Origin: Lysobacteraceae bacterium
GTDB lineage: Bacteria; Pseudomonadota; Gammaproteobacteria; Cardiobacteriales; Wohlfahrtiimonadaceae
Length of the DNA stretch: 45,770 nt
NCBI GenBank assembly: GCA_012513365.1
Contig: JAAZCI010000003.1
Span: 1 to 45,770, forward strand
Direction of reading: 5' to 3'
Shown: positions 17,303-21,077 of the stretch, piece by piece
Position numbering within the stretch: position 1 is the stretch's first letter
Layout: every line of letters begins with the position of its first letter
Translations under genes and position numbers: made by a program
Notes under the pieces: model-generated
Told to the model about the DNA's origin: nothing
The model's database searches: none
The model's input: only the letters and a program-made list of their open reading frames with translations

Positions 17303-17614
17303 TTAACCTAATTTAATTTGCACATCAACACCAGCAGCAAGGTCGAGCTTCATTAAAGCATCAACTGTTTTGTCTGTAGGGTTGACAATATCCATTAAAC
17401 GCTTGTGCGTTCTGAGTTCATACTGATCTCGAGCATCTTTATTAACATGTGGAGAGGTTAACACAGTGAAACGCTCGTGCTTGATTGGTAAAGGAATTGG
17501 ACCTTTAACCTGTGCACCAGTACGTTTTGCTGTTTCAACGATCTCTTTTGCTGACTGATCGATTAAACGATAGTCGAATGCTTTTAGACGTATTCTGATT
17601 CTTTGATTATCCAT
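17303..17614 (-). CDS. rpsJ: 30S ribosomal protein S10 (NusE)
   Basis: Small-subunit head protein that doubles as NusE, the partner of NusB in boxA-dependent antitermination. The 103 residues match E. coli length and the sequence is strongly conserved ([18 protein letters not shown], then [15 protein letters not shown]). The open frame reaches 17650, but the ATG at 17614 is preceded by GAGAG and gives the family length. It follows tuf after a hairpin, and a boxA-like element precedes tuf, so this NusE gene may lie under NusE-dependent control. Confidence 0.98.
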
Positions 17615-17638: not shown

Positions 17639-17664
17639 AGAGCACCCCACTATCGGGATGCTCT
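17639..17664 (-). other. Hairpin between tuf and rpsJ
   Basis: A ten-pair stem (AGAGCATCCC with GGGGTGCTCT on the minus strand, one G-U) closes a six-base loop. It starts 13 bases after the tuf stop codon. It is followed only by CGATTTTC, so it would be a weak terminator at most. It could act as an attenuator or processing site that sets tuf above the ribosomal genes. Confidence 0.45.
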
Positions 17665-17677
17665 GAAGGAAATAAAC

Positions 17678-18868
17678 TTATTTAATTACCTTAGCAACAA
17701 CACCAGCACCAACAGTACGGCCACCTTCACGGATTGCGAAGCGTAAGCCTTCTGCCATTGCGATTGGGTTGATTAACTCAACAACCATTTTAATGTTATC
17801 ACCAGGCATTACCATCTCAACGCCCTCAGGAAGCTCACAAGCACCTGTTACGTCAGTTGTACGGAAATAGAATTGTGGACGATAACCTTTGAAGAACGGA
17901 GTATGACGACCACCTTCGTCTTTAGAAAGGACGTAAACTTCTGCTTCAAATTGTGTATGGGGAGTGATTGTGCCGGGTTTAGCAAGAACTTGTCCGCGCT
18001 CAACATCTTCACGACGAGTACCACGAAGAAGAACACCAACGTTATCTCCTGCGCGACCTTCATCAAGAAGTTTACGGAACATTTCAACACCTGTACAGGT
18101 TGATTTCTGAGTATCGCGGATACCAACGATCTCAACTTCTTCACCTGCTTTAAGAATACCTGTTTCAATACGACCGGTTACAACTGTACCACGACCTGAG
18201 ATTGAGAACACGTCTTCGATAGGCATAAGGAAAGGTTTATCGATTTCACGCACTGGCTCTGGAATCCATGCGTCTAATGATTCGATAAGTTTTTTGATTG
18301 CAGGTACACCGATTTCAGACTGGTCGCCTTCGATCGCTTTAAGTGCAGAACCTACAATTACTGGAGTATCATCGCCAGGGAAATCATATTCGTTAAGAAG
18401 ATCACGAACTTCCATCTCAACAAGTTCGATCAACTCAGCATCATCAACCATATCTGCTTTGTTTAAGAAAACAAGAATATATGGAACACCTACTTGGCGT
18501 GATAATAAGATGTGCTCACGAGTTTGTGGCATAGGACCATCTGCAGCTGAACATACGAGAATCGCTCCGTCCATTTGCGCAGCACCAGTGATCATGTTTT
18601 TAACATAGTCAGCGTGTCCTGGGCAGTCTACGTGTGCGTAGTGGCGATTAGGTGATTCATATTCAACGTGTGAAGTTGAGATTGTGATACCACGCTCTCT
18701 CTCTTCTGGTGCGTTATCGATTTGATCGTACGCACGGATATCTCCACCGTATTCTTCAGCACCAACCTTCGTTAATGCAGCAGTTAAGGTAGTTTTACCA
18801 TGGTCAACGTGACCAATTGTACCCACGTTTACGTGTGGTTTATTACGACTAAAAGTTTCCTTTGACAT
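17678..18868 (-). CDS. tuf: Elongation factor Tu
   Basis: GTPase that delivers aminoacyl-tRNA to the ribosome. The product has 396 residues (E. coli 394). The P-loop GHVDHGKT is at about 18-25, followed by [20 protein letters not shown] and the NKAD guanine-specificity motif. The frame is open to 18907, but the ATG at 18868 is preceded by GGGG and gives the invariant N terminus [20 protein letters not shown]. It is separated from fusA by a terminator-like hairpin, an embedded candidate promoter and a boxA-like sequence, so its expression is probably partly uncoupled from the str operon. Confidence 0.99.
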
Positions 18869-18882
18869 TTTAATACCCCAAA

Positions 18883-18895
18883 TTGTTAAAGAGCT
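18883..18895 (-). promoter_or_regulatory. boxA-like antitermination element upstream of tuf
   Basis: The minus strand reads AGCTCTTTAACAA here. Starting one base in, GCTCTTTAACAATTT is identical to the boxA region of E. coli rrn leaders as I remember it; boxA binds NusB-NusE to resist Rho termination. It lies just past the U run of the fusA-tuf hairpin and 14 bases before the tuf start codon. Downstream lie tuf and the whole S10 operon, whose next gene encodes NusE. Confidence 0.6.
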
Positions 18896-18896
18896 A

Positions 18897-18927
18897 AAAA
18901 CAAGCACTACATTATAGTGCTTGTTTT
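18897..18927 (-). terminator. Terminator-like hairpin between fusA and tuf
   Basis: A perfect 13-pair stem (18927-18915 with 18909-18897) closes a five-base loop and runs into five U on the minus strand. It fits an intrinsic terminator or attenuator limiting read-through from the str operon into tuf and S10. A candidate -10 box lies across its 5' arm and loop, so RNA started there would lack the 5' arm. Confidence 0.75.
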
Positions 18928-18939
18928 AGATTTTGCAAA
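18911..18939 (-). promoter_or_regulatory. Candidate tuf promoter embedded in the hairpin
   Basis: On the minus strand TTTGCA (18939-18934, four of six), a 17-bp spacer and a perfect TATAAT (18916-18911) form a sigma70-like promoter. Initiation would fall near 18904 inside the hairpin's 3' arm. That yields a short leader that cannot form the terminator and has boxA close to its 5' end. The weak -35 keeps confidence moderate. Confidence 0.5.
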
Positions 18940-18977
18940 TATAATTTATTTTACAGCGTTAGTAATTAAGGATTTAA

Positions 18978-21077
18978 TTACTCGCCTTTGTTACGAGCGA
19001 TGATTTCATCAGCAACGTTTTTCGGAGTTTCTTGATATTTTAAGAACTCCATCGAGTAGGTCGCACGACCTTGAGTTGCTGAACGAAGTGAGTTCGAATA
19101 TTTGAACATTTCAGATAATGGAACTTCCGCTTTGATGAGCTTAGAACCATACGCATCTTCGATACCTTGAAGACTACCGCGACGACGGTTAAGATCACCC
19201 ATAACGTCACCCATGTAATCTTCAGGTGTTTCAACTTCAACAAGCATAACCGGCTCAAGTAATACAGGACCCGCCTTGGCAGCACCTGCTTTGAAACCCA
19301 TAGAACCTGCGATTTTGAACGCCATTTCACTTGAGTCAACTTCGTGGTAAGAACCATCGTAAAGTGTTACTTTCACGTCTTCTACTGGGTAGCCCGCGAT
19401 AACACCGTTTGCCATTTGCTCTTTGATACCCGCGTCAACAGCTGGGATGTATTCACGAGGAACAGCACCACCAACGATTTCGTTAACGAACTCGTATCCT
19501 TCACCTGGCTCTCTTGGTTCTAAACGTAACCATACGTGACCGAACTGACCGCGACCACCTGACTGACGAACGAATTTACCTTCAACTTCGACAGATTTGG
19601 TGATAGTTTCACGGTAAGCAACTTGTGGCGCACCTACAGCACATTCAACTTTGAACTCTTCTTTAAGACGATCAACGATGATTTCTAAGTGAAGCTCACC
19701 CATACCACCGATGATTGTTTGTCCTGATTCTTCATCTGTGCGAACACGGAATGAAGGGTCTTCTTGCGCTAATCGACCTAAAGCCATACCCATTTTTTCT
19801 TGGTCAGCTTTTGTTTTTGGCTCGATTGCAACAAAGATTACTGGCTCAGGGAACTCCATACGCTCAAGCGTAATGATGTTTTGTTGATCACAAAGAGTAT
19901 CACCCGTAGTAACGTCTTTAAGACCTACCATCGCTGCGATATCACCTGCACGGATCTCATCAATCTCGCTACGTGAGTTTGAGTGCATTTGAAGTAAACG
20001 ACCAACGCGCTCACGGCGATCTTTAACCGGGTTATAAACAAAATCACCTGATTTGATCACGCCTGAGTAAACACGTACGAAGGTTAAGTTACCAACAAAT
20101 GGGTCGTTCGCTAATTTGAACGCTAGCGCTGAAAATGGCTCTTCGTCTGAAGAAATACGCACACCACGCTCACCGTCAGGCAATTCACCCGCAATGTCTT
20201 TTACTTCTGTAGGAGAAGGAAGATAGTAGATTACGTCATCAAGAAGTGCTTGAACACCTTTATTTTTGAACGCTGTACCACAGGTTACTGGAACGATTTC
20301 AGAGGCAAGTGTACGCACACGGATACCGCGACGAATATCATCTACTGAAAGTTCACCTTCTTCAAGGTATTTTTCCATTAACTCTTCTGATGCTTCAGCT
20401 GCAGCTTCTACCATTTGTGAACGATAGTTTTCTGCGTCTGCTAAAAGCGCTTCAGGAATATCACGCTCTTCAAACTTCATACCCATTGACGCTTCGTCCC
20501 AGTAGATCGCTTTCATTGTTACTAAGTCGATCACACCTTCGAACTCGTCTTCAGCACCGATTGGAAGCTGAATAGGTACAGCGTTTGCACGTAAACGGTC
20601 TTTCATTTGCTCAACAACGCGTAGGAAGTTAGCACCAGTACGGTCCATTTTGTTGATGAACGCGATACGTGGAACTTCATACTTGTTAGCTTGACGCCAT
20701 ACAGTCTCTGACTGAGGTTGAACACCACCTACTGAACAGTAAACCATTACCGCACCGTCAAGAACACGCATAGAACGCTCAACTTCGATTGTAAAGTCAA
20801 CGTGACCTGGAGTGTCAATTAAGTTGATGCGATGCTCAGGGAATTGTTGCTTCATTCCACTCCATGAACATGTAGTCGCAGCAGATGTGATAGTGATACC
20901 ACGATCTTGCTCTTGTTTCATCCAGTCCATTGTTGCGGTACCATCGTGAGTTTCCCCGATACGATGACTTCTACCTGTGTAATACAGAATACGCTCTGAC
21001 GTCGTCGTTTTACCTGCGTCAATGTGTGCGCTAATACCGATATTACGATAACGCTCAATAGGCATAGTTCGAGCCAT
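18978..21077 (-). CDS. fusA: Elongation factor G
   Basis: GTPase that drives ribosomal translocation and, with RRF, ribosome recycling. The product has 699 residues (E. coli 704). The P-loop AHIDAGKTT is near the N terminus, followed by [20 protein letters not shown] and NKMD. Domain IV contains [11 protein letters not shown] and [17 protein letters not shown]. It lies in the str operon 115 bases after rpsG and is followed by the terminator-like hairpin before tuf. Confidence 0.99.

Follow-up and report, generated by a model that had tools for sequence, protein, structure and literature searches.

The window, the 45.8-kb stretch of DNA analyzed here, contains a tuf gene located between fusA and rpsJ, the head of the S10 operon (Table 1). 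The rpsJ gene is the second gene after the fusA-tuf gap and lies 63 nt downstream of tuf, with a hairpin between the two. Read along the minus strand, the fusA-tuf gap consists of TTTGCA, a 17-nt spacer, a TATAAT hexamer that lies within another hairpin, a U run, a boxA, a Shine-Dalgarno (SD) sequence and the tuf ATG at position 18868. The perfect 13-bp stem with its U run, the TATAAT across its 5' arm and loop, and the TTTGCA 17 bp upstream had been described in an initial annotation of this DNA, and all of them were confirmed in the sequence. A search with Rfam at gathering thresholds gave no match in the window.

Table 1. Features of the fusA-tuf-rpsJ region and boxA loci in CRISPR leaders. 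Positions refer to the window unless a genome and contig are given.
Feature	Position	Strand	Remarks
fusA (EF-G)	18978..21077	minus	NCBIfam TIGR00484, E = 0; last of rpsL-rpsG-fusA group
fusA-tuf gap with device	18869..18977 (109 nt)	minus	
-35-like TTTGCA	18934..18939	minus	alternative TTGCAA one base downstream, spacer 16
Terminator-like hairpin, perfect 13-bp stem, loop TAATG	18897..18927	minus	A run before, U run after
-10 TATAAT	18911..18916	minus	across hairpin 5' arm and loop; family-invariant
Predicted Ptuf start region	18902..18905	minus	within hairpin 3' arm; inferred from -10 spacing
boxA GCTCTTTAACA plus ATTT (15-mer GCTCTTTAACAATTT)	18880..18894	minus	predicted Nus site
Shine-Dalgarno GGGG	18876..18879	minus	4 nt past boxA 11-mer, 7 nt ahead of tuf ATG
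tuf (EF-Tu), S10-linked copy	17678..18868	minus	NCBIfam TIGR00485
10-bp hairpin between tuf and rpsJ, then CGATTTTC	17639..17664	minus	
rpsJ (ribosomal protein S10 = NusE), S10 operon head	17303..17614	minus	NCBIfam PRK00596
CRISPR-leader boxA (L174)	G000:C302:7609		
CRISPR-leader boxA (L173)	G000:C274:4294		
CRISPR-leader boxA (L176)	G396:C2:707674		

The hairpin and the probable promoter nested in it

Apart from the fusA-tuf hairpin, the window has no perfect stem that reaches 10 bp (loop of 3-8 nt). A 13-bp stem was reached in none of 3000 dinucleotide shuffles of the gap, and the minimum free energy of the hairpin is -16.2 kcal/mol (z = -6.0). With a stable stem containing G+C pairs and a U run behind it, the hairpin has the makeup of an intrinsic terminator. 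A terminator scan of the window did not report it, probably because the U run pairs into the stem. Five U residues follow the core stem in the window's species and in Ignatzschineria; in Wohlfahrtiimonas there are only four, which are paired into the stem, so that termination may be weak in that genus.

The hexamers upstream of tuf are conserved and spaced by 16 nt (TTGCAA) or 17 nt (TTTGCA), within the 16-18 nt of a sigma-70 promoter, and a transcription start is predicted from them. An equally good -35/TATAAT match occurs in 2.7% of the shuffles of the gap. Hence, the promoter match is weak taken alone, no rarer than expected by chance, and it is conservation that makes the case for a promoter. 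The leader RNA that would result is AU-rich and without structure (z = 0). Judged from these sequence features, both the promoter and the terminator are probably real.

Two further hairpins were noted in the vicinity. At or just past the fusA stop codon (window 18960-18980, minus strand) there is a small AU-rich hairpin, TAATTAA-ATCC-TTAATTA, and comparable small dyads of other sequence are present in Wohlfahrtiimonas and Ignatzschineria. At window 22183-22118 (minus strand), an 8-bp hairpin and its T run come directly after the rpsL promoter (TTGACA-17-TAAAAT), some 40 nt ahead of the rpsL start, and form a candidate for an rpsL-leader attenuator.

Conservation in the family

The tuf genes of 57 relatives, together with further copies, were retrieved for comparison. 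The hairpin, the nested TATAAT, the boxA core and the SD sequence are present in each of the 14 fusA-tuf gaps that could be read in this family. Three genera are represented: two of the genomes belong to the window's species, eight are of the Ignatzschineria type and four of the Wohlfahrtiimonas type. Among them are Ignatzschineria ureiclastica, I. cameli, Wohlfahrtiimonas chitiniclastica and W. larvae; the NCBI taxonomy places Wohlfahrtiimonas in the Ignatzschineriaceae, Cardiobacteriales. The initial annotation had called for such a comparison and had named the loss of boxA from relatives that keep the hairpin as evidence against it; every relative that keeps the hairpin was found to keep the boxA core TCTTTAANA as well. 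In the other readable families of the order the fusA-tuf gap is 18-21 nt long, in two more distant genomes it is 21-22 nt long, and the device is absent from all of these.

Conservation within the gap is sharply localized. Among Ignatzschineria genomes, the block from the -35 to the -10 is 98.5% identical, boxA is 100% identical, and the promoter, hairpin and boxA overall are 98.5-100% identical; identity elsewhere is 84% at the end of fusA, 92% at the start of tuf and 33% in the rest (the first part) of the gap. TTGCAA and TATAAT are held in 13 aligned gaps. TTTGCA reads ATTGCA in one of them, with TTGCAA kept.

The stem reads ACAAGCAC, ACAAGCTC or AATAGCGC across the three genera and is always completely paired. 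In the alignment, its positions pair in 100% of the cells, and three pairs are doubly changed, one of them occurring in three states (GC, UA and AU). Two more pairs vary between G-U and A-U types, a change that keeps the RNA pair and breaks the DNA symmetry. Sliding the partners against each other abolishes the pairing signal, which, with seven distinct rows, is modest but clean. This pattern of substitutions indicates that the stem is under selection for pairing.

The hairpin between tuf and rpsJ follows a similar distribution. It is terminator-like in all three genera, with differing stem sequences (L149-L152) and with ATTTTT after it in Ignatzschineria, and other families lack it. As a partial terminator, it could set the ratio of EF-Tu to S10.

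boxA at tuf and at other loci

The 15-mer GCTCTTTAACAATTT is letter-identical to the boxA region of the E. coli rrnB leader, as the initial annotation had stated. Its core, TCTTTAANA, is kept across genera while the neighboring positions vary, and it occupies the same position in all 14 readable gaps. The boxA rule of Baniulyte et al. (2017, PMC5725501) asks for GYTCTTTAANA no more than 50 nt ahead of a start codon. The 11-mer GCTCTTTAACA, located 15 nt ahead of the tuf ATG, fits this rule, and such a match arises in 0.17% of the shuffles of the gap. The tuf boxA of Ignatzschineria meets the rule as well; that of Wohlfahrtiimonas has the core only and, since it begins with AT rather than GY, falls outside the strict published consensus.

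The likeness to the rrn leader antitermination site (boxB-boxA-boxC) comprises the identical 15-mer and, in RNA that reads through from fusA, a hairpin upstream of boxA. Unlike in the rrn leader, where boxA lies ahead of a long untranslated RNA, the tuf boxA precedes an SD sequence and a translated gene whose ATG is 15 nt away, and RNA from the tuf promoter (Ptuf) would not contain the hairpin. No 16S gene was found in the window's assembly or in most genomes of the family; the rrn leader of a relative (G014), used for comparison, reads GTTCTTTAACAATTT.

The window's genome contains five YTCTTTAANAATT sites. One is that at tuf, two CRISPR leaders account for one site each, and the remaining two, which are antisense inside open reading frames, are chance matches. 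The arrays are of the Cas12a type (repeat GTCTAAGACTTATATCTAATTTCTACTGTTGTAGAT) and of type I-F, as assigned from their repeats alone. The same boxA sequence is known from CRISPR array leaders (Stringer et al. 2020, cited in PMC7862264), where it is reported to help processivity (PMC7862264). Unlike tuf mRNA, these are long non-coding RNAs with no SD sequence adjoining boxA.

Elsewhere in the class, a search of 369 genomes for boxA before tuf produced just two further matches: one is within an unrelated stretch and the other, TCTTTAAGA, is near a contig end. The search for boxA before rpsJ gave five matches, of which one falls within the rpsJ coding region (G309/L168) and one is convincing. 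The latter (G205:C1:933781, L170) comes from a 1.2-Mb gammaproteobacterial genome in which fusA is followed directly by rpsJ and the gap contains TTGACA, TAGAAT and GTTCTTTAACAATTT. It is an independent case, so boxA at the head of an S10 operon has arisen elsewhere too. The rpsJ gene at this locus likely has a TTG start.

A second tuf, 99% identical to the first, is located behind tRNA-Tyr-Gly-Thr in the window's genome. No boxA was found at the tRNA-linked tuf in this genome or in any relative examined; boxA therefore goes with the copy upstream of rpsJ. Comparison of the two copies thus suggests that the regulated product is NusE/S10 and not EF-Tu. We also considered gene conversion from the other tuf as the source of boxA and rejected it, as the tRNA-linked tuf is without boxA in every genome seen.

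The closest counterpart to the tuf leader is that of E. coli suhB, in which a boxA 6 nt from the SD sequence represses translation and causes Rho termination (PMC5725501). In both leaders, of about 37 nt, the boxA 11-mer is 4-6 nt ahead of the SD sequence and 15-16 nt past the -10: the spacing is -10, 16 nt, boxA, 15 nt, ATG at tuf, and -10, 15 nt, boxA, 17 nt, ATG at suhB. The E. coli suhB -10 was read from the sequence here and fits the 37-nt leader implied by PMC5725501. The suhB mRNA, furthermore, feeds a Nus factor, and that of tuf would do so if rpsJ is transcribed along with it, past the intervening hairpin. Unlike at suhB, tuf comes first and rpsJ, the gene for the Nus factor, after it, the -10 sits within a terminator-like hairpin, and regulation is predicted. 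In nine Ignatzschineria-type genomes, TCTTTAANA is also present just ahead of the SD sequence of suhB, the established target, at sites that violate the strict first-base rule of PMC5725501. The suhB boxA core was not found in the window's species or in Wohlfahrtiimonas.

Proposed control of the tuf-S10 transcript

These findings suggest a control patch, specific to this family, that would split the str-S10 series into two transcripts, the second of which would be under Nus-factor control. RNA made by polymerase arriving from rpsL-rpsG-fusA would form the hairpin, and polymerase would mostly halt there, or the 3' end of the RNA would be fixed there. The nested TTTGCA-17-TATAAT promoter would start a new RNA at about 18904, within the 3' arm. 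Because this RNA lacks the 5' arm, it cannot form the hairpin and would pass, an escape that the initial annotation had proposed and that holds by the geometry of the site. As RNA from Ptuf holds only the 3' arm, pairing of the stem can matter only for RNA arriving from fusA, and hence we read the dyad as a terminator or a 3'-end hairpin. The leader of about 36 nt would then expose boxA just ahead of the tuf SD sequence, where NusB-NusE (S10) and the rest of the Nus complex would bind. As in the E. coli suhB leader, their binding would lower translation of tuf, uncouple it from transcription and let Rho stop transcription before rpsJ. If the complex at boxA represses, excess free NusE/S10 would turn down its own operon, while the supply of EF-Tu would be buffered by the boxA-free second tuf in the tRNA operon.

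Nus control of the tuf-S10 mRNA is likely, given how closely the layout resembles that of suhB. The complete explanation, a hairpin-nested promoter combined with boxA-mediated NusE feedback on tuf-S10, is the best that we can offer, although we would not put it above an even chance; promoter activity, termination, NusB/E binding and repression are all things we infer. The initial annotation had proposed an antiterminated, possibly NusE-autoregulated unit. The link to NusE is reasonable, boxA being present at the S10-linked tuf and not at the tRNA-linked one, and NusE autoregulation through boxA had been proposed earlier (PMC5725501). The proposed direction fared less well: boxA is 4 nt from the SD sequence and about 16 nt from the -10, and since this spacing matches E. 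coli suhB, where boxA represses, NusE feedback repression is likelier than antitermination and is the sign of control that we favor. Repressing the very abundant EF-Tu in order to control S10, however, looks costly.

Antitermination would require boxA to load an rrn-type Nus complex on polymerase that leaves Ptuf. The complex would carry transcription of tuf and of the S10 operon through the tuf-rpsJ hairpin and Rho sites, with a NusE loop that is positive or homeostatic. It would suit a boxA close to the 5' end of a long operon, and the other boxA sites of the genome are indeed in leaders of long untranslated RNAs, those of the type I-F and Cas12a-type CRISPR arrays. The terminator-like hairpin with a diverging stem between tuf and rpsJ, found in three genera and not in other families, keeps this possibility alive. 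However, boxA abuts the SD sequence of a translated gene, as at suhB, and ribosomes on tuf already guard against Rho. In addition, reviews name Rho-dependent termination as the target of the bacterial complex and add intrinsic termination only with a "probably". Because of the position of boxA at the SD sequence and the mainly anti-Rho action ascribed to the complex, we hold antitermination to be possible but rather unlikely. That a positive role of boxA, of the antitermination type, would fit the tuf-rpsJ hairpin as well counts against the repression reading. A related scheme is a Nus-sensing switch evolved by the Ignatzschineriaceae, in which the promoter nested in the fusA terminator makes a boxA-led mRNA and the Nus complex at boxA sets the passage of polymerase past the tuf-rpsJ hairpin. 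Free NusE would then balance EF-Tu against the S10 operon and thereby NusE itself, with the suhB boxA taking part in Ignatzschineria; we regard such a switch as speculative and unlikely.

Two other explanations dispense with part of the device. The hairpin and nested promoter might decouple tuf from fusA, with TCTTTAACAATTT serving as a U/A-rich S1-type translation enhancer ahead of the SD sequence and not as a Nus site. The leader is unstructured and AU-rich, tuf is strongly expressed, and an AU-rich composition favors pyrimidine-A tracts. The exact match to rrnB boxA and the retention of TCTTTAANA between varying neighbors speak against an enhancer, as do the recurrence of the same core before suhB, in an unrelated leader, and the distribution of the five YTCTTTAANAATT sites in the genome, so that we find it improbable. 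Alternatively, the dyad might be a DNA operator that overlaps the -10 and serves a dimeric repressor, instead of an RNA hairpin. A perfect palindrome centered on a promoter -10 would be apt for this, and symmetric changes fit operators too. Yet the stem sequence varies between genera, its G-U pairs maintain RNA pairing at the expense of DNA symmetry, an A run before and a U run after it are present in two genera, and the window is otherwise without perfect stems of this size. An operator is thus very improbable.

Compared with known systems, boxA control of rpsJ operons is not new. PMC5725501 lists putative boxA sites that precede rpsJ itself in three genera and, in two, the leading gene of an operon containing rpsJ, and its proposal of NusE autoregulation concerns other gammaproteobacteria; the tuf boxA is exactly the same class of finding, and the genera compared here may be among those on its boxA list. 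The main text of that paper does not mention fusA and tuf, and its passages on boxA sites do not mention a hairpin or nested promoter. That tuf can be transcribed on its own, starting inside the str operon, is known from the internal fusA-tufA promoters of E. coli, but these are inside fusA, unlike the one in the gap here, and no terminator-nested promoter is described in the account given by the review (PMC10931766). The nested promoter/terminator arrangement looks new. It illustrates how a single short palindrome could close one transcript and open the next while leaving the new RNA free to continue. Autoregulation of NusE (S10) by boxA has been proposed on the basis of boxA positions, and in the literature consulted we found no test of it on an S10 operon. 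The family supplies a sharply conserved, easily transplanted leader of about 70 nt for examining it, and the boxA-free second tuf provides a natural control.

In Ignatzschineria, the same cells would also have suhB as a predicted target. PMC5725501 states that no species has a boxA at more than one Nus gene; judged from the sequences, Ignatzschineria departs from that statement, with a boxA at suhB as well as at the tuf-rpsJ operon, and this combination looks new. The SuhB homologue of the family (L132-L148; the copy of the window's genome is at G000:C34:2289-3038) has itself lost the inositol-monophosphatase motifs: DPLDGT is replaced by SGIVGK, GLSGAE and similar sequences, and GEE is lost. 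Its best PDB match is the Nus factor SuhB, and there is a separate IMPase paralogue with an intact motif. Judging by these motifs, the SuhB of this family may be a pure transcription factor.
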